Made by a program: the position numbers and the translations under genes. This document shows, piece after piece, positions 33,018-39,661 of a stretch of 63,381 nt of DNA. Every line of letters starts with the position of its first letter. Within the stretch, counting starts at the first letter, position 1. Origin of the DNA: Bifidobacterium tissieri (GTDB lineage Bacteria > Actinomycetota > Actinomycetes > Actinomycetales > Bifidobacteriaceae); the NCBI RefSeq assembly GCF_002259645.1, contig NZ_MWWV01000008.1, forward strand, positions 1 through 63,381, in the 5' to 3' direction. The notes beneath the pieces are model-generated. The model worked only from the letters and a program-made list of their open reading frames with translations, had not been told where the DNA came from and did not search any database.

Positions 33018-36000
33018 TTACTTCCTATTGAATGTCCAGCGCTGGGCGGCGGAACCGTTGGACGCGTACATCTGAATGTTGGTGCCGTTGCTCGTGCCGC
33101 CGCCAACGGCGTCGATCACGAAATCCTCCTTCAACGCGGAACGCAACGTGATCGAACCATCGTCGTTCTTCACCGCAATCCACTTCTGCGCCCAGGAACC
33201 GTTGGACGCATACTGCTGCGCGTTCGCGCCGTTGCTCGTGGACGCGCCGGAGATGTCCAGCACCTTGCCGGAGTTCACGTTGGTCAGCGTCATGTATCCT
33301 GCGGAGTCGTGCGACACTTTCCACGCCTGCGCATTCGTGCCGTTCGACGCATACAACTGCACATTCGCACCGTCGTCACGCGAACCGCCCGACACGTCGA
33401 AGCGCATCGACTTCTTCGCGGTTGACGCGATCTCAACCGTGCCGTCGGCCACGTCGGACTTGTGCTGCGCGGCCATCTTGTTCAGACGCGTGCGCATAGT
33501 GCTGGTCGTCGTGATCGTCCAACGTTGCGCCTTGGACCCGTTCGAGTCATACACCTGCACGTTCGCGCCGTTTGCAGAGGATGCACCGGTCACGTCGAGC
33601 ACGGACGAGGATTTGAGCGCGGTCGCGATCCGGTACGTGCCGTCCTTGAGATCATCCTTATGCTGGGCGGCGAGCGTGTTCAACCGGTCGCGTGATGTCG
33701 GCGCTTCGGCGATGGTCCACTGCTGGGCCTTGGTACCGTTGCCGTCGTAGATCTGGAGTTTGGTGGCGTTGGCCGTGGCACCGGCGGGCAGGTCGATCGC
33801 ACGGTTGGAGCCGGCTCCGTATAGCGAGAACGCGACGGCGGACGAATCCGTACCGTTGGCACTGTCGGTGCCGTTGCTGCCTTCTGCCGTGCGCACGATC
33901 CAGTGCTGGGCCGCGGAACCGTTGGAATCCCACTGCTGCACGGCGGACCCGTTGCCGGTCGAACCGTTCGCGACATCGATCACACGGCCGGAATTGACGT
34001 TGGTGATCGTGTAGACGCCGTTGCCCACCTGACGGAATCGGAACAGCTGCGCGTCGGTGCCGTTGTCGTCGAAGAGCTGGAGCCGTGCGCCGTTGTCGGT
34101 GTTGGCACCCGTGACGTCGATCACACGGTTCTTCGCGGCAGCGGACTGGATCTTCACGGCCTTGGTGGTGAACGGTTTCGTGGCCGACGCGAGCAGGAAC
34201 TTCTGCGCGTTCGTGTCGTTGGGCGTGTACAGCGCGACGGTGGTGTGGTCGCTCGTGCTGCCGCCGGCGAGGTCGAGCACCCAGTTGCCGAGCGCGGACT
34301 GGATGTAGTAGCCGCTGCCGGAGTCGCGGATGAACCAGCGCTGAGCGGTGGTGCCGTTGGACGTGAACTGCTGGACCGTCGCGCCGTTATACGCGTTGCC
34401 GCCGTTGATGTCGAGCGCCTTGCCGGAGTTGACGTTGGTGATCACGTAGCTGCCGTCGGACTGCTTGGTGAACTTGAACTGCTGCGCGACGGAGTTGTTG
34501 TACGAGTACAGCTGGGGCCGGGTGCCGTCGGACGTGCTGTAGTCGGGGATGTCGATGCTGGCCGAGTCGCGTGCCTTCGCGTTGATGTAGTAGACGCCGT
34601 CGGGGATGGTGACAGTGGCGAGCGTATTGATCTTGGGCACGAGCAGCGACTGCACCTTGGTGCGGATGCTGTCCATGCGGTCCCACATCTTCTGACCGGG
34701 GCAGGCGGTGTTGTTCGCGCTGTCGACCCAGTGGGCCTTGTCGCCGTGGCCGGTGATGCGCGGCTGGGTGCCCTTGTATTCGAACGTGTCCTTGGCGTTG
34801 GTGATGCCGAGGGCGTTGAATTCCCAGGCGATGGCGGCGGAGACCGAGTTGATCGCGGCCTCGGATGGGGCCTGGCTGGTGAAGTCGCCGAGCACGACCA
34901 CGCCGAACGTGGCGGTGTTGAAGCCACGGGCGTGAGCGCCGACGGCGTTGCTTGCGGGCACGACCTGATTGTCCACGCCTTCGTCGCGGCCCTCCCAGAT
35001 GCCGCCGTACTTGTCGACGAGCAGGTTGTAGCCGATGTCGCCCCAGCCGTTGGACGTGTTGTGATACACGTAGATGCCATTGATGAGTGCGGGGACTTCG
35101 GCCTGCGTGTAGTTGTTGGCCGGCTGGTAGGTGTGGTGGACCACGGCACCCTGCCAGTGGCCGCTGTTGTCGGGCTTCCAGGCGCGGGCCGGGTTGCCGG
35201 ACTTCCACCATTCCTCGCGGGTGTGGATGCGGCCGGCGGAGGTGATGGCGTCGGCGGCGGTACGGACGGATGGGGTGGAGGTTGCGGCGGTGGGCGCGGC
35301 TGCGGAATCCACAGAGTTTTCCCGGTTATTCACGGTGTTTGCGGTGTTCTCCGCAGTCGAAGCCGTTGTACTGGAATCTGCTACGCCGGAATCCACAGAC
35401 TTGTTCGCGGTATCCACATGTTCGGCATTCGTATTCGCGGACGGGACATCGGACCGTGCGTCGGAGTGGGGCACATCGGACTGTGCCGTCGAGGTAGACT
35501 GCACGTCACGCGTATTGGAACGAGCCGTAATGTCCGCACTGGTCTTTGCATCGCCAACGGCGGAATAGCCCGGATCGACGGTGATGAACTTCGCCTCGGT
35601 AATCGTCTGGCCATCCACTGGGGTCAGGCGCGCCTCGGCCTCGGTGGCAAGACCCACGTAATAGGCCGGGCTGGAGCCCATCTCGCCAAGATCATCGTCA
35701 ACGGATGGAAGCGTCCGCCACTCGCTCCACGCGTTGTCCTTGAAGTATCGGAGTTCGAGCTTCGGCGCCTTGGCCATGTCGGTCATATCCTGCTGCTTCC
35801 ACGTCACGCCCACCGTGGCTAGGCCATCGAGGTCGGCCGCAGCGACAAGCGTGTCGGACCCGGTGTCGTCGGTCAGACCGTCGGAGCCACTCTCGCCGTC
35901 GTCATTCTGCGCATCCAACCCGTACGTGGACACGTCCGACGCGGACATAAACGACTCTTCGGCTGTCTTCGGCGTATGCGTCTTCTCCACCTTGGTCGGG

Positions 36001-36209
36001 CCGTCCGCCGAGGTGCCCGTCACCGTCGATGTCGTTACGGGAGCTGCCGAAGAAGTCACGTCGGAAGCGCCGGTCGAGGTCGTCGCGGCAACATTCGCAT
36101 CGGAACCGGACGCGGACGGTGCTGCCACGGCTGAACCCATCGGCATCAGCATCGCCGTTGCGGCCACTCCCCCGACCACGGCCTTCATCACACGAGTCCA
36201 TGCACTCAT
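33018..36209 (-). CDS. Secreted PGRP/amidase_2 N-acetylmuramoyl-L-alanine amidase with ricin-type repeats
   Basis: The 1063-residue protein starts MSAWTRVMKAVVGGVAATAM with a signal peptide to about residue 30 (AVAA-PS). A Ser/Thr/Ala-rich region (to about 320) includes WKQQDMTDMAKAPKLELRYF. The PGRP/amidase_2 domain (about 328-515) has zinc ligands His in GAVVHHTY and ITGHGD and Cys in TACPGQKMW, with YNLLVDKYGGIWEGR. From about 540 to the end are ricin-type trefoil repeats whose last 140 residues closely resemble those of the two preceding glycosidases. Family chemistry: cleavage between muramic acid and the stem peptide in the cell wall. The start at 36209 is preferred to an upstream in-frame start at 36239 because GAAGGAAGCG lies before it. 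Probably the lectin part binds wall or surface glycan. Confidence 0.92.
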   Translation of the reverse strand: MSAWTRVMKAVVGGVAATAMLMPMGSAVAAPSASGSDANVAATTSTGASDVTSSAAPVTTSTVTGTSADGPTKVEKTHTPKTAEESFMSASDVSTYGLDAQNDDGESGSDGLTDDTGSDTLVAAADLDGLATVGVTWKQQDMTDMAKAPKLELRYFKDNAWSEWRTLPSVDDDLGEMGSSPAYYVGLATEAEARLTPVDGQTITEAKFITVDPGYSAVGDAKTSADITARSNTRDVQSTSTAQSDVPHSDARSDVPSANTNAEHVDTANKSVDSGVADSSTTASTAENTANTVNNRENSVDSAAAPTAATSTPSVRTAADAITSAGRIHTREEWWKSGNPARAWKPDNSGHWQGAVVHHTYQPANNYTQAEVPALINGIYVYHNTSNGWGDIGYNLLVDKYGGIWEGRDEGVDNQVVPASNAVGAHARGFNTATFGVVVLGDFTSQAPSEAAINSVSAAIAWEFNALGITNAKDTFEYKGTQPRITGHGDKAHWVDSANNTACPGQKMWDRMDSIRTKVQSLLVPKINTLATVTIPDGVYYINAKARDSASIDIPDYSTSDGTRPQLYSYNNSVAQQFKFTKQSDGSYVITNVNSGKALDINGGNAYNGATVQQFTSNGTTAQRWFIRDSGSGYYIQSALGNWVLDLAGGSTSDHTTVALYTPNDTNAQKFLLASATKPFTTKAVKIQSAAAKNRVIDVTGANTDNGARLQLFDDNGTDAQLFRFRQVGNGVYTITNVNSGRVIDVANGSTGNGSAVQQWDSNGSAAQHWIVRTAEGSNGTDSANGTDSSAVAFSLYGAGSNRAIDLPAGATANATKLQIYDGNGTKAQQWTIAEAPTSRDRLNTLAAQHKDDLKDGTYRIATALKSSSVLDVTGASSANGANVQVYDSNGSKAQRWTITTTSTMRTRLNKMAAQHKSDVADGTVEIASTAKKSMRFDVSGGSRDDGANVQLYASNGTNAQAWKVSHDSAGYMTLTNVNSGKVLDISGASTSNGANAQQYASNGSWAQKWIAVKNDDGSITLRSALKEDFVIDAVGGGTSNGTNIQMYASNGSAAQRWTFNRK

Positions 36210-36803
36210 ATCCGCTCGCTTCCTTCTTGCACAACACACGTATCTCCCAACCTACCCGGCCCTACCTACCCGATCCGTCCGGCGGCTTCCGGCGTCATCG
36301 CACCCTGTTCATCAGGCAACCGCTTTGACATCGCCACGACTAACACCAGCGCACCTGCTCCAACATCGTCGCCATGACCGACCATCCATCCACCAAGCAG
36401 TGGCCTAATACCTAATAAATAATGGAAACCGTCGTGAAAGCTGTCTGCTCCCGGCCTGCCCACGAAGCCGCATTTGATGCCCGTGTGGAATCTGCAACCG
36501 CTCACCCCTGACCTATCCCCCGTTCACTAGGCAGATGCGGCAAATCCCCAAGATATAACCACCGTTCGCTAGGTCTTTCGCAAAATAGACCAACCGGCAG
36601 CAGCCCCCAGAGAGCTCAATTCCCCATCATTCTGTTGAGGACTAGTAAAATCCAACAACCTAGCGAAGCGTACATAGACCTATACAGACCCTGGAATCTG
36701 CCTAGCGAAGCACAGATAGCCACCGAGCCCAGCCCCGCGGGCGCCACGCTATCTTCCGAGGCCGCATACATACAATGGGCGTGGGTTTTCGGCGGGAGCG
36801 GAT
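36210..36803. other. Divergent spacer with 42-bp repeats
   Basis: No gene is supported across about 590 bp between the amidase and the PP2C-like gene. It contains four CCTAGCGAA-type motifs, described separately. Promoters for both divergent genes must lie here. Confidence 0.5.
36523..36709. repeat. CCTAGCGAA motif array: two inverted pairs with 42-bp spacing
   Basis: Minus-strand copies lie at 36523-36531 (one mismatch) and 36565-36573, and plus-strand copies at 36659-36667 and 36701-36709. The spacing within each pair is exactly 42 bp, about four helical turns, and ATCTG precedes the distal motif in both pairs. A single further copy is at 631-639. This is likely a DNA-binding array or the remnant of an inverted repeat element. 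Confidence 0.65.
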
Positions 36804-37964
36804 ATGCGGATCGATATTGCGGAACAACGGACCTTGGGCAAGCGCGAGAATGCACGACTCAACGAGGACGGCATCTACGCCAACGACTGCGGCAACGGAT
36901 TCATCGCCGTGGTGGATGGGGTGACCAGTAAAAGCACCGCGAACATCTGGAATCCGACACCCGGGGTCGTGGCGAAGGATACGATTCTCGCCGCATTGCG
37001 GAGGGCTCACCCCGAGACCGATCTGCGCGGCATGCAACGGCTGATCGACGGTGCTCTGCGGGAGAAGTACCGCTCTGATATGGCGGCTGCGGGTATCAAC
37101 GCGTGCGGGACCGACACGCGTGTGGAAGGAAACAGCGAAAACGGCACGTGCACAGGCGGGTCTCTGCTCGACCACGTGCGCAATCATCCCAACGATCGAC
37201 TGCAGGCCAATGCCGTGATCTATTCGGCGGCGCGGCACGAGATCTGGCTGTTCGGGGATTGTCAGGCGATGGTCAACGGACACGCGATCCCCACCACCAA
37301 ACGCGTGGATGTACTGCTCGGCGAGCTGCGCAGCTTTGCATGGCACGCGATGCGGTTGCAGGGCCCACAGGATCGGCAAAGTCTATCGGACGACTGGCAG
37401 GGCTCTTGCGATTCGCACGATCAGGCACGAGACATGATCATGCCGTTCCTGCGATTGCAATCCCAGTTCGCGAATCGGCGCGGCGAATACGGATACTTCG
37501 TATTCGATGGCTTTACAGACCCGGAGTATCCGATTCAGGTTATCAACGTCGCTCGCGGAGAATCTGAACCGCCGACTCGATCGTTGGATTGGGCGTTAAA
37601 GGAATCACCAAGATCGCCAGCAGGATCAACGGAACAGGAGACGAGAGCGAAGGCGGATTCATCGGCGTCGTTGCTGCAGTCGTCGGAATCGTCTCCACAG
37701 CCATCGCAGTCTTCGATATGGCTGTCGGCACAGTCATCAACGTCCGGGGTCATCGGCGCGGTTTCGGTGCGGCCAGGCGACGACGTGGTTCTCGCGAGCG
37801 ACGGATATCCGATCATGCGCCCCACACTGGCGGAGTCGGAACAGGAACTGGAACGATTGCGCCGCGCGGATCCGCATCTGGTCAATGAATTCCGCACGAC
37901 CAAGGGATTCACGCCGGAATTACGATCGTTCGACGATCGAACTTATATCCGCTTCGCCGCATAA
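36804..37964 (+). CDS. PP2C-like serine/threonine phosphatase-related protein
   Basis: The 386-residue cytoplasmic protein (no signal or membrane segment) has the PP2C hallmarks in diverged form. ARLNEDGIYAND and FIAVVDGVTSK match the N-terminal metal-binding Asp motifs, IWLFGDCQAMVNG matches the middle GDS-type strand, and GDDVVLASDGYPIM matches the late SDG motif. Between these, residues about 265-315 are a Ser/Gln-rich linker of low complexity. If active it would remove phosphate from Ser/Thr with two metal ions. Start ATG at 36804 follows GGGAG by 5 bp. It stands alone and ends about 100 bp before a strong terminator. Partner kinases are not in the window. Function is an inference from motifs. 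Confidence 0.65.
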   Translation: MRIDIAEQRTLGKRENARLNEDGIYANDCGNGFIAVVDGVTSKSTANIWNPTPGVVAKDTILAALRRAHPETDLRGMQRLIDGALREKYRSDMAAAGINACGTDTRVEGNSENGTCTGGSLLDHVRNHPNDRLQANAVIYSAARHEIWLFGDCQAMVNGHAIPTTKRVDVLLGELRSFAWHAMRLQGPQDRQSLSDDWQGSCDSHDQARDMIMPFLRLQSQFANRRGEYGYFVFDGFTDPEYPIQVINVARGESEPPTRSLDWALKESPRSPAGSTEQETRAKADSSASLLQSSESSPQPSQSSIWLSAQSSTSGVIGAVSVRPGDDVVLASDGYPIMRPTLAESEQELERLRRADPHLVNEFRTTKGFTPELRSFDDRTYIRFAA

Positions 37965-38067
37965 CGCTTCCGACACCCCGACACCTCGGCATATACCACC
38001 AATCCGGTTCGGGCAGCATTGTCCGACGCAGCAACGGCGCTCAGCAGATAACGATTGGCGGAAAAAC

Positions 38068-38103
38068 GAAAATCCCCCAGCGGCTGAGCCGTGGGGGATT
38101 TTC
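38068..38103. terminator. Strong terminator downstream of the PP2C-like gene
   Basis: The 12-bp perfect stem GAAAATCCCCCA (38068-38079) pairs with TGGGGGATTTTC (38092-38103), with an inner CGGCTGAGCCG. The A- and T-rich arms let it serve both strands, so it could also end the small-peptide transcript coming from the right. Confidence 0.9.
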
Positions 38104-38244
38104 AGGTGAAACTATGGGGCCGGACCTGACTGGGCACCGTCGAAACGATCGAAACGATCCACTCGCGGTGATTCAGCGGCCTTGGCCGTCGCCGAGATTC
38201 CGTTTCCGTATCGCGAAAGAAACGGGATCCCAGTTCGAAGTTCA

Positions 38245-38272
38245 GTTATGAGTTATGGGTTACGAGTTATCG
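38245..38272. repeat. Four 7-bp tandem repeats
   Basis: GTTATGA, GTTATGG, GTTACGA and GTTATCG lie in a row just past the stop of small peptide gene 1. They are imperfect copies of GTTAYSR and their function is unknown. Confidence 0.8.
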
Positions 38273-38289
38273 CCGCGCCGCTAGTTGAT

Positions 38290-38415
38290 TCAGCGAGCGT
38301 CGTCCTGCAGGTCACGCAGGGTGTCGGCGATGGCTTTGCCGGCGACCGGGTTGGCAGCCAGAGTGGAAGCGCCGTAGAGGGCCATACCGCGCAGAATGCT
38401 CTTCTTGATGTTCAT
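38290..38415 (-). CDS. Small peptide gene 1 (41 residues), paralog of gene 2
   Basis: The ATG at 38415 is preceded by AAGGAGAACATC, a near-ideal ribosome site at correct spacing. The frame encodes 41 residues: MNIKKSILRGMALYGASTLA, then ANPVAGKAIADTLRDLQDDAR as two parts ending at TGA 38290-38292. It shares MNIKxSxxRGxAxYGASxxA with the peptide at 38517-38639; the C-terminal halves diverge. The N-terminal half is basic and then hydrophobic with a Gly/Ala pattern, and the C-terminal part is an acidic amphipathic helix candidate. No cleavable signal peptide is evident. The family is not recognised. Conserved N-terminus, two separate ribosome sites and paralogy argue that it is a real gene. It lies about 100 bp downstream of gene 2 and may share its transcript. 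Confidence 0.8.
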   Translation of the reverse strand: MNIKKSILRGMALYGASTLAANPVAGKAIADTLRDLQDDAR

Positions 38416-38516
38416 GATGTTCTCCTTGTTGTTGAAGTATGTGATTGATTATTCAGTTGTAAGTCTTGAACGCCCTGTGATCTGCGGCCATCCGCGGTCG
38501 ATCAGGGTTTGCGCGC

Positions 38517-38639
38517 TCAGCGGGTCTCTGCCTCGCGAGCCAGGTCGATGACCGTCTGGTTCATCTTGCTGCAGGAACCGGCCATCACGGAGGCGCCGTA
38601 CATAGCCAGACCGCGCATCATGCTGTTCTTGATGTTCAT
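38517..38639 (-). CDS. Small peptide gene 2 (40 residues), paralog of gene 1
   Basis: From ATG 38639, with AAAAGGAACAGCA upstream, the frame reads MNIKNSMMRGLAMYGASVMA then GSCSKMNQTVIDLAREAETR and ends at TGA 38517-38519. A longer in-frame reading to 38741 adds 34 residues with no ribosome site and would destroy the alignment with gene 1, so the shorter start is preferred. The first 20 residues match gene 1 at about 12 positions. One Cys (residue 23) is present here and absent in gene 1. The promoter-proximal position behind a palindrome suggests regulation. Possible roles include a secreted or membrane-active peptide, a signal peptide for cell-cell communication, or a small regulatory protein; none is demonstrated. 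Confidence 0.8.
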   Translation of the reverse strand: MNIKNSMMRGLAMYGASVMAGSCSKMNQTVIDLAREAETR

Positions 38640-38687
38640 TGCTGTTCCTTTTCTATTTCCGTCCGCCTTGTTTGGCTGACATGAATA

Positions 38688-38716
38688 ACGATAGAGCACC
38701 TGCGCAATTTGCGCAA
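38688..38716 (-). promoter_or_regulatory. Candidate promoter and operator of the small-peptide genes
   Basis: On the minus strand TTGCGC (38716-38711) and TATCGT (38693-38688) are 17 bp apart, and the ATG of gene 2 lies 49 bp downstream. The -35 box and spacer overlap the palindrome TGCGCAATTTGCGCA (38701-38715), a likely repressor site. ACCAAGTGGTTGGT, another inverted repeat, lies at 38737-38750. Confidence 0.5.
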
Positions 38717-38818
38717 GCGCTGGCGCAGAGAAACCTACCAAGTGGTTGGTATTACGCCGTTTTGTCGGCGTGTCGCACGAAGAGCTTATCTTTCCTTGAA
38801 ATTACAACGGTTTGAAGA

Positions 38819-38834
38819 AAGTGTGATCACACTT
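38819..38834. promoter_or_regulatory. Variant of the GTGTGATCACAC palindrome
   Basis: AAGTGTGATCACACTT keeps the 12-bp core GTGTGATCACAC of the window's recurrent palindrome but has AA/TT in place of TTA/TAA flanks. Confidence 0.6.
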
Positions 38835-39002
38835 ACGATATGGTCACCAAGACATCGGCAAGCACGGCACCTCTTCTTACGCCGCAATCAGCCAGTACAA
38901 GAAGACAGCGTTCCCGCGCGATGCGCAACACCGTTGCCCTACTGCACGACGGTCGGCTCTGGGTAAAGCCACGTCACGAGCATCCCCTTATCGTCCTCAA
39001 AT

Positions 39003-39039: not shown

Positions 39040-39293
39040 ATAGGTACGAACGAGACGACTACAGTCGAAGCCCGAATAATCAGCGACAGAATCAAAACAC
39101 CAACTTGGCGAAATACAGCAACACAACCCGACGCATCGCAATCCGATGCCCAGCGGCAAGAGCCCACGGACCCCACGACCAACAGTGCGACGTGCACCGC
39201 AGTCCGAAATCCAAAGCGACGGCGTTCACCAGATCCCGAGTCAGCCTACGTCACCCCTGGCAACGAAGAGTCCGGGCGGCAGTCGACAACAAT

Positions 39294-39403
39294 ACGGGCT
39301 GAAAAAGACGGTTTTCGCAATTCGTAGTGCTTTACGGACGTTTCCGTGCCTTGAAACGTCCGCACACTACTACGAATCGCAGGAATCGTCTTTTTCAGCC
39401 CGT
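39294..39403. repeat. Long imperfect inverted repeat, about 110 bp (MITE or structured RNA)
   Basis: The left arm starts ACGGGCTGAAAAAGACG and includes ATTCGTAGT and CGGACGTTTC. The right arm is its reverse complement with a few mismatches and ends CGTCTTTTTCAGCCCGT. Arms are about 50 bp with a short centre. No coding capacity. A non-autonomous transposable element is the simplest reading; a stable hairpin RNA is the alternative. Confidence 0.75.
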
Positions 39404-39661
39404 AATTTCTGCCCCGAAGCCCGAACGTCGTCGCGACCGGCCCGCGATCGTATCCGCATAGCCCGAGCACCAGCCCGAGCATCGCACCTATCGCGTAGTT
39501 ATGCAGACATACAGCAGCGCATCCACGTCACGCAAAACACGCCACAATCGTTCGCAATGTTGATTGTCCCCGAATACCCCCGCAGTTAGAATGAAAACAG
39601 ATCAGCGATGATGCTGACGCCTTAAGGGACAGGGGCACCATGTTTTTAAGGAGGTCCGCCA

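Follow-up and report, generated by a model that had tools for sequence, protein, structure and literature searches.

Microproteins of 37-44 residues form a bifidobacterial family tied to LacI-type control in relatives

Aureocin A70 and other leaderless bacteriocins consist of short peptides encoded in tandem, each with its own ribosome site and without a leader. In Escherichia coli, sugar stress induces the microprotein SgrT, a single-copy product of the SgrS RNA that is under an activator; its target is known, a sugar transporter that SgrT binds and inhibits. The bifidobacterial peptides described here resemble aureocin A70 in being short, tandem and leaderless with separate ribosome sites, whereas their near-neutral C-terminal part, the absence of a recognised immunity gene and LacI-type control in relatives set them apart. 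As a functional analogy, they are like SgrT in having about 40 residues in a single domain, and their production, too, would be linked to sugar status, as LacI-type operators and a co-occurring LacI gene imply; the family differs in these operators and in its tandem paralogues. A close regulatory match is the PtxS regulon of Pseudomonas, in which, according to the portion of PMC5902321 consulted, a LacI-family repressor acts through a 14-bp operator near the -10 element that is identical to the bifidobacterial one. PtxS controls sugar-acid operons, whereas in five of eight genomes scanned from a second Bifidobacteriaceae genus the only exact site belongs to a microprotein gene. The global AraQ/MalR1 LacI regulon of Bifidobacterium (PMC4746261, PMC6882875, cited from parts of these papers) also touches the family, since one peptide type carries an AraQ-like site, TTGTGAGCGCTAACAA, in 3/3 promoters, close to the published motif TGTGAGCGCTCACA (PMC4746261). 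In their main texts, as far as covered, the two AraQ/MalR1 papers mention no microprotein targets, and "peptide" is absent at word starts.

The window, the whole 63,381-nt stretch analysed here, is contig C37 of the 2.87-Mb genome of a primate-gut Bifidobacterium and contains two small minus-strand genes, pepA and pepB (Table 1). The original prediction had proposed such a pair, each gene with its own Shine-Dalgarno site, and both reading frames and both sites were found as claimed. The common N-terminus of the paralogues is also present. When pepA was searched against its own genome, two further matches had E values of 2.0e-11 and 2.3e-11, and another three, pepB included, fell at 5e-4 to 0.006. 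The further claim that the C-termini differ is borne out by a variable C-terminal half, but both peptides end in Arg after a D/E-rich stretch, as does the family as a whole. A 74-aa extension of pepB from a TTG start is unlikely because of upstream stops in the relatives G002 and G003: at three of four loci a stop lies 16-20 codons upstream in the peptide frame (open-frame lengths 56, 56 and 59), and at the fourth, where the frame is open (105), the matching TTG frame nevertheless ends in TAA.

Table 1. Features of the pepA/pepB locus, in window coordinates.
Feature	Position	Strand	Description	Basis
Terminator-like hairpin	38069-38102	unassigned	inverted repeat AAAATCCCCC...GGGGGATTTT, between pepA and convergent gene 36804-37964	
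pepA	38293-38415 (38290 including stop)	minus	41-aa microprotein MNIKKSILRGMALYGASTLAANPVAGKAIADTLRDLQDDAR, second gene of the transcript	ORF, homologues, pN/pS
pepA Shine-Dalgarno region AAGGAGAACATC	38416-38427	minus		same motif 5′ of closest pepA homologues
pepB	38520-38639 (38517 including stop)	minus	40-aa microprotein MNIKNSMMRGLAMYGASVMAGSCSKMNQTVIDLAREAETR, first gene of the transcript	ORF, homologues, pN/pS
pepB Shine-Dalgarno region AAAAGGAACAGCA	38640-38652	minus		located in sequence
Predicted 5′-UTR hairpin TGTCAGCC-AAACAA-GGCGGACG	38660-38681	minus		minimum-energy fold
Promoter	38688-38716	minus	-35 TTGCGC 38711-38716, 17-bp spacer, -10 TATCGT 38688-38693	
15-bp palindrome of the original prediction TGCGCAATTTGCGCA	38701-38715	unassigned		exact in only 7/14 related promoters
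20-bp near-perfect palindrome CTGCGCCAGCGCTTGCGCAA	38709-38728	minus	probable operator; overlaps -35; core AGCGCT	
TetR-like palindrome TACCAACCACTTGGTAGGT	38733-38751	minus		ACCNACC....GGTA invariant in 14/14 promoters
Box GACACGCCGAC	38764-38774	minus		CACGCCG invariant in 14/14 promoters

The order of pepA, pepB and the two flanking genes is the same in two other species (L060 of G002 and L062 of G003). On the plus strand, a 386-aa gene at 36804-37964 converges on pepA and adjoins the peptide pair in two other species at 46-53% identity; a Pfam search of it gave no match, and it contains NEDGIYANDCGNGFIAVVDG, which we take to resemble a PP2C phosphatase motif. Within the terminator-like hairpin that separates it from pepA, a stem scan for which about one chance hit is expected called a minus-strand stem. 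Further along, at 33018-36239 on the minus strand, lies a 1073-aa protein with many ricin-type lectin repeats and an N-terminal half that presumably resembles a peptidoglycan amidase; it is probably a secreted cell-wall enzyme. Upstream of the pair, at 39293-39404, is a 112-bp imperfect, MITE-like inverted repeat with 52-nt arms that are 83% complementary. A related repeat lies upstream of a second peptide array in the same genome (L009 8211-8326). The terminal 15-mer of the window's repeat occurs in 16/253 loci, and all 16 cover the places just named.

That second array, on contig C12 (locus L009), makes up four of a group of five further peptide genes, and distant copies exist besides. A family profile finds members in 9/9 genomes of the window's genus, with E down to 3.7e-23, and the 38-row profile A3 finds them in 33/189 Bifidobacteriaceae genomes from 2 of 16 genera, namely all nine genomes of the window's genus and 24 genomes of the second genus. 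Homologues beyond the strain, on which the original prediction was to be judged, were thus found. For homology outside the Bifidobacteriaceae, a sample of 394 genomes from the class yielded, besides the window's own genome, one weak match (E 0.005), inside a 415-aa open frame. Of the 112 ORFs listed by the searches, seven with E 0.0016 to 0.017, all lacking a terminal R or K, were set aside as chance matches; there are 88 distinct members at E < 1e-4, 37-44 residues long. The last residue is Arg in 82 of these and Lys in the other six, as compared with 16% R and 11% K in a control of 218 long ORFs, counted regardless of whether they are real genes.

At least four family types exist. The core type (SFKDSM/SLKDSM) was found in both genera, the array type (NIKKS/NMKNS) includes pepA and pepB, and three genomes yielded the MNIAKSMLHG type. 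The GFKKN..MALAGF type, captured by profile A5, matches 25/189 genomes, only 13 of them at E < 1e-10, and the weaker matches are read as cross-matches to other family types. The A3 and A5 profiles match each other at 98.2%, a figure that is partly circular because they have one row in common. Two further peptides, starting MTNKNIF and MANKNIF, end in Arg and lie behind the same LacI operator as the core type; this type, M(A/T)NKNIFGD(F/I)(I/L)NYCADNMFPESIAREKMAE..R, stands at L248 5121 and L249 5591 in second-genus genomes G153 and G190, and a relative of it, at L070 7979-8095, adjoins a peptide gene. In G005 the whole peptide region occurs twice in opposite orientation on contig C1 (L065 and L066, 95-113 kb and 219-237 kb), either as a large inverted duplication or as an assembly artefact; the contamination estimate for this genome is 9%.

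The claim that the peptides belong to no known family stands, as no significant match was found in Pfam, NCBIfam, PHROG, PADLOC or the PDB. When 38 A3 members were scanned, the best E values were 0.0035 in PHROGs, 0.048 in Pfam and 0.038 in NCBIfam, PADLOC gave none at 0.01, and every family listed matches a single member. A defence system was rejected for want of a PADLOC match, and a mobile or phage origin was rejected on the absence of phage or plasmid matches: pepA had no tblastn match in 50,697 phage records, a G059 peptide had none in 72,556 plasmid records, and 0/18 pattern matches in IMG/VR were confirmed. A literature search that included family heptapeptides found no description of the family in titles and abstract starts of a partial listing. 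The consulted part of PMC7903761 reports one novel small protein of B. longum, of 57 aa, which could not be matched to the family from that part.

The reading frames are under purifying selection, the point on which the original prediction had asked for a rate analysis. Pooled pN/pS is 0.12 for pepA (five close homologues) and 0.25 for pepB (four close homologues), and it ranges from 0.12 to 0.47 across eight groups of close homologues, with single pairs up to 0.86. By halves, in seven groups, pN/pS is 0.22 in the N-half and 0.39 in the C-half (pN 0.042 versus 0.096), and one of the seven, a second-genus group, reaches 0.87 in the C-half. Between the window species and the two species with the same locus, pS is 0.19 for pepA, a rough figure from about 31 synonymous sites, as against 0.39-0.62 for the two flanking genes; this is consistent with codon constraint and may hint at high expression. 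Overall, there is good support for a new small-protein family with conservation at the protein level and a link to LacI-type control in relatives.

The promoter elements of the original prediction, a -35/-10 pair with a 17-bp spacer overlapping a palindrome, were located where it had put them. A strict sigma-70 consensus scan of 37900-39000 returned no promoter, and the promoter claim therefore rests on conservation. To this end, 14 promoters of the window's array type from nine genomes were aligned, leaving out the second, inverted G005 copy, and the -10 element CTATNGT is conserved in all of them. The case for the 15-bp palindrome as operator is weakened by its exact presence in only half of these promoters. 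The adjacent 20-bp palindrome is better kept: its consensus TTGCGCCAGCGCTTGCGCAA is exact in 10/14 promoters, has one mismatch in three (the window included) and three mismatches in one. Repressor-type control, which had been proposed, thus gains from the conserved promoter palindromes and loses on the particular palindrome named. Across the whole window genome, the 20-bp palindrome has only two one-mismatch sites, both 5′ of peptide arrays; only these count, because at up to three mismatches the pattern gives 3 matches versus 15 per strand for a reversed control. The TetR-like palindrome likewise has only two one-mismatch sites in the genome, both 5′ of peptide arrays, and its two-mismatch matches are near control level. 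A RAMACGCCG box, akin to CACGCCG, was noticed by eye in second-genus promoters. The core AGCGCT of the 20-bp palindrome is that of LacI-type sites such as TGTGAGCGCTCACA of AraQ, as given in the consulted part of PMC4746261, a likeness to LacI-type sites that we infer from these letters.

In the second genus, the peptides are linked to a specific regulator. A LacI-family orthologue of at least 73% identity is present in 23/112 genomes, which are exactly the 23 with a core peptide; the 24th genome with family members, G129, has the GFKKN-like type only, and LacI matches of 49 to 51% identity in four more genomes are read as paralogues. The hypergeometric value of this co-occurrence, 2e-24, ignores shared ancestry and so is not readable as a probability. 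The two genes are divergent and within 600 bp of each other in 19 genomes, 1.8 kb apart in G138, 22 kb apart in G114 and on different contigs in G153 and G190. All 24 second-genus core promoters examined, from 23 genomes, contain the palindrome TGAAAYCGGTTTCA. The 14-mer TGAAACCGGTTTCA stands just behind the -10 element, exact in 23 of these promoters and with a C-to-T change at position six in one; according to the consulted part of PMC5902321, PtxS, which represses in response to 2-ketogluconate in Pseudomonas, has this very operator. Of the eight second-genus genomes scanned, five (G059, G138, G020, G128 and G161) have a single exact copy of the 14-mer, which lies at the peptide promoter. 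A second exact copy lies 5′ of another R-ending 38-aa peptide in G153 and G190 and, in G114, inside a larger ORF that by eye is aldo-keto reductase-like.

The same operator is found in the window's genus, 5′ of a core-type peptide in 7/9 genomes, and the LacI orthologue in 8/9, at 60-63% identity (the G008 copy has one internal stop in its read-through). G007 has peptides and no LacI orthologue at E 1e-70, and this LacI is therefore not needed everywhere. Nor is the peptide its sole target in this genus, because the operator also stands 5′ of genes for a 2-hydroxyacid dehydrogenase, a TIM-barrel protein and a short-chain dehydrogenase, and of a 384-aa ORF in G004. The neighbours of the G002 LacI gene are a D-2-hydroxyacid dehydrogenase, a mannose-isomerase-like enzyme (a call below the equivalog cut-off), a nitroreductase and a xylose-isomerase-like TIM-barrel protein, and parts of this gene order are kept in G001, G008 and the window genome. 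These neighbours and targets, with the PtxS operator identity, suggest that the ligand of the bifidobacterial LacI may be a sugar acid or hexose; the operator identity is no proof of this, because similar recognition helices can lead different LacI proteins to the same sites.

The combination of TGAAACCGGTTTCA at the promoter and a LacI gene was thus found in relatives; it does not extend to the window's pair, as an exact TGAAACCGGTTTCA is absent from the window genome. This genome does have a TGAAATCGGTTTCA promoter at L009 10818-10831, near an endonuclease-IV-like gene, where relatives have a core-type peptide. No recognisable peptide lies downstream of this promoter, and the core-type peptide was probably lost there. 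A partial LacI match in the same genome (G000:C11:101310-102029) covers residues 101-340 at 70% identity, with the DNA-binding part outside the match; it is closer to the second-genus regulator than is the window genome's own orthologue.

Most of the mRNA leaders have a predicted hairpin. A stem of the type at 38660-38681 appears in the minimum-energy fold of 10/14 array leaders; it is absent in G005, G007 and G008, and has another shape in G004 C26. The motif GTCAG is invariant in the 14 aligned array promoters and opens the predicted hairpin in ten leaders. In the second genus, a half-operator close to the probable 5′ end can pair with a following GAARCC-like stretch, and a second stem of varying sequence precedes the ribosome site in 24/24 single-sequence folds. 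Compared with 300 mononucleotide shuffles, the second stem beats 95% of them in 22/24 leaders, the exceptions being L129 and L134. An automatic consensus fold of the 24 leaders gave no pairs, perhaps because the hairpins are out of register in the alignment. A known RNA element was rejected for the window and L009, where Rfam matches only a tRNA.

An AlphaFold2 model of pepA, built on an alignment of 34 sequences (two from the window, the rest from related loci), consists of helices at 2-21 and 23-40 with a mean pLDDT of 74.7 and a low pTM of 0.32. The C-terminal helix of pepA is amphipathic, as only 0.9% of shuffles reach its moment; that of two other peptides tested is borderline (7 to 8%). 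In all three, the N-terminal 18 residues carry +1 to +3 and show no significant amphipathicity (their moment is reached by a fraction of 0.20 to 0.59 of shuffles), the C-terminal 18 residues carry 0 or -1, and the mean hydrophobicity of the N-half is low, at 0.13-0.16. None of the three has the cationic and amphipathic character sought in a leaderless bacteriocin. Among the neighbours, called as ORFs of at least 100 aa, no immunity gene or dedicated exporter was recognised; short immunity genes would be missed by these calls, which use the longest ORF, and the resulting clusters include spurious antisense ORFs. A gene for an MFS transporter adjoins five array loci in the window's genus, spread over four genomes (L059, L061, L064, L065 and L066), and may matter for transport; no such gene cluster adjoins the window's pair or those second-genus loci that were examined. 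The original prediction had derived a signalling, immunity-linked or membrane-active role from the divergence of the C-termini, and this is not supported, given the overall C-half pN/pS of 0.39, the low N-half hydrophobicity and the lack of a recognised exporter or immunity gene.

The explanation we favour, tentatively and at a little under even chances, is that pepA and pepB are sugar-triggered intracellular two-helix microproteins that modulate a partner. The genes, the family, the selection, the promoter conservation and the linkage of LacI, operator and peptide in relatives come from computation, and from them we infer the trigger, the abundance, the cytoplasmic site and the modulator role. 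As two members of the bifidobacterial family, the peptides would be encoded on short mRNAs with strong ribosome sites and mostly with a predicted 5′ hairpin. LacI-type, possibly also TetR-type, repressors that sense sugars or sugar acids would switch these genes, so that an inducing sugar would take the repressor off the promoter and let the peptides build up in the cytoplasm. There they may fold as predicted into two helices, of which the N-terminal one, MNxKxSMxRGLALYGAS, is conserved and the C-terminal one is variable, D/E-rich and near-neutral with an invariant basic end. Most likely their role would be to adjust, by binding, a protein or membrane-surface partner that has a link to the uptake or metabolism of carbohydrates. 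Paralogues expressed together would have one binding mode and a differing second helix, and hence may differ in partner or in the make-up of mixed oligomers. The window's pair would presumably obey the same logic via its own, different palindromes, and its arrays likely respond to a sugar.

The exact co-occurrence of LacI and core peptide in 23/112 genomes, which extends to three where the genes are not adjacent, would also be expected if the peptide were an effector or antirepressor of its own LacI-family regulator in a feedback loop. We regard this as unlikely, given that G007 retains peptides without this LacI and that many paralogues of the window's genus lie behind other palindromes. Secreted or processed quorum-type signalling peptides, with the mature signal at the C-terminal end, would account for paralogue arrays with more variable C-halves, and the invariant basic residue at their C-terminus could be a mark for processing or recognition. 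The N-half is the more conserved, however, which is the reverse of classical pre-signal peptides, no secretion signal was apparent by eye and no receptor gene was recognised among the conserved neighbours, so that a role of this kind appears quite improbable.

We give a low probability to leaderless multi-peptide bacteriocins that are exported and act on competitors' membranes. Short leaderless peptides in a tandem array, with separate ribosome sites and a cationic N-terminal part, do fit that description, and the MFS gene beside five array loci could in principle serve for export. Against this, the C-terminal part is near-neutral and no amphipathicity spans the whole length, no immunity gene was recognised and the MFS cluster does not extend to the window's pair or to the second-genus loci examined, PHROG, Pfam and NCBIfam gave no significant match, selection is purifying overall rather than diversifying, and a LacI co-occurs. 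No support was found for a bacteriocin, immunity or secreted-signal role. That function lies in the RNA, with the reading frames only secondary, is highly improbable: predicted 5′-leader hairpins whose stem sequences differ between genomes speak for it, but all eight groups have pooled pN/pS below one half, single high pairs notwithstanding, and Rfam yielded no match besides the tRNA in the window or L009.

On the favoured reading of sugar-triggered intracellular modulators, a bolder version, which we consider doubtful, would have the LacI sensor dedicated to a 42-residue peptide as a self-contained sugar switch, with this peptide as its sole output in several species and no metabolic gene behind the same exact operator. 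In primate-associated species the peptide gene would then have multiplied into arrays behind sugar-type repressor sites that differ from one array to the next, yielding combinatorial small adaptors that retune metabolism or transport according to host diet. Proteins of fewer than 50 residues are poorly charted, and this family is absent from all profile libraries searched. If the proposed explanation is true, gut bifidobacteria own a conserved repressor-microprotein module, and with it an unsuspected layer that would link dietary sugars and bifidobacterial metabolism.
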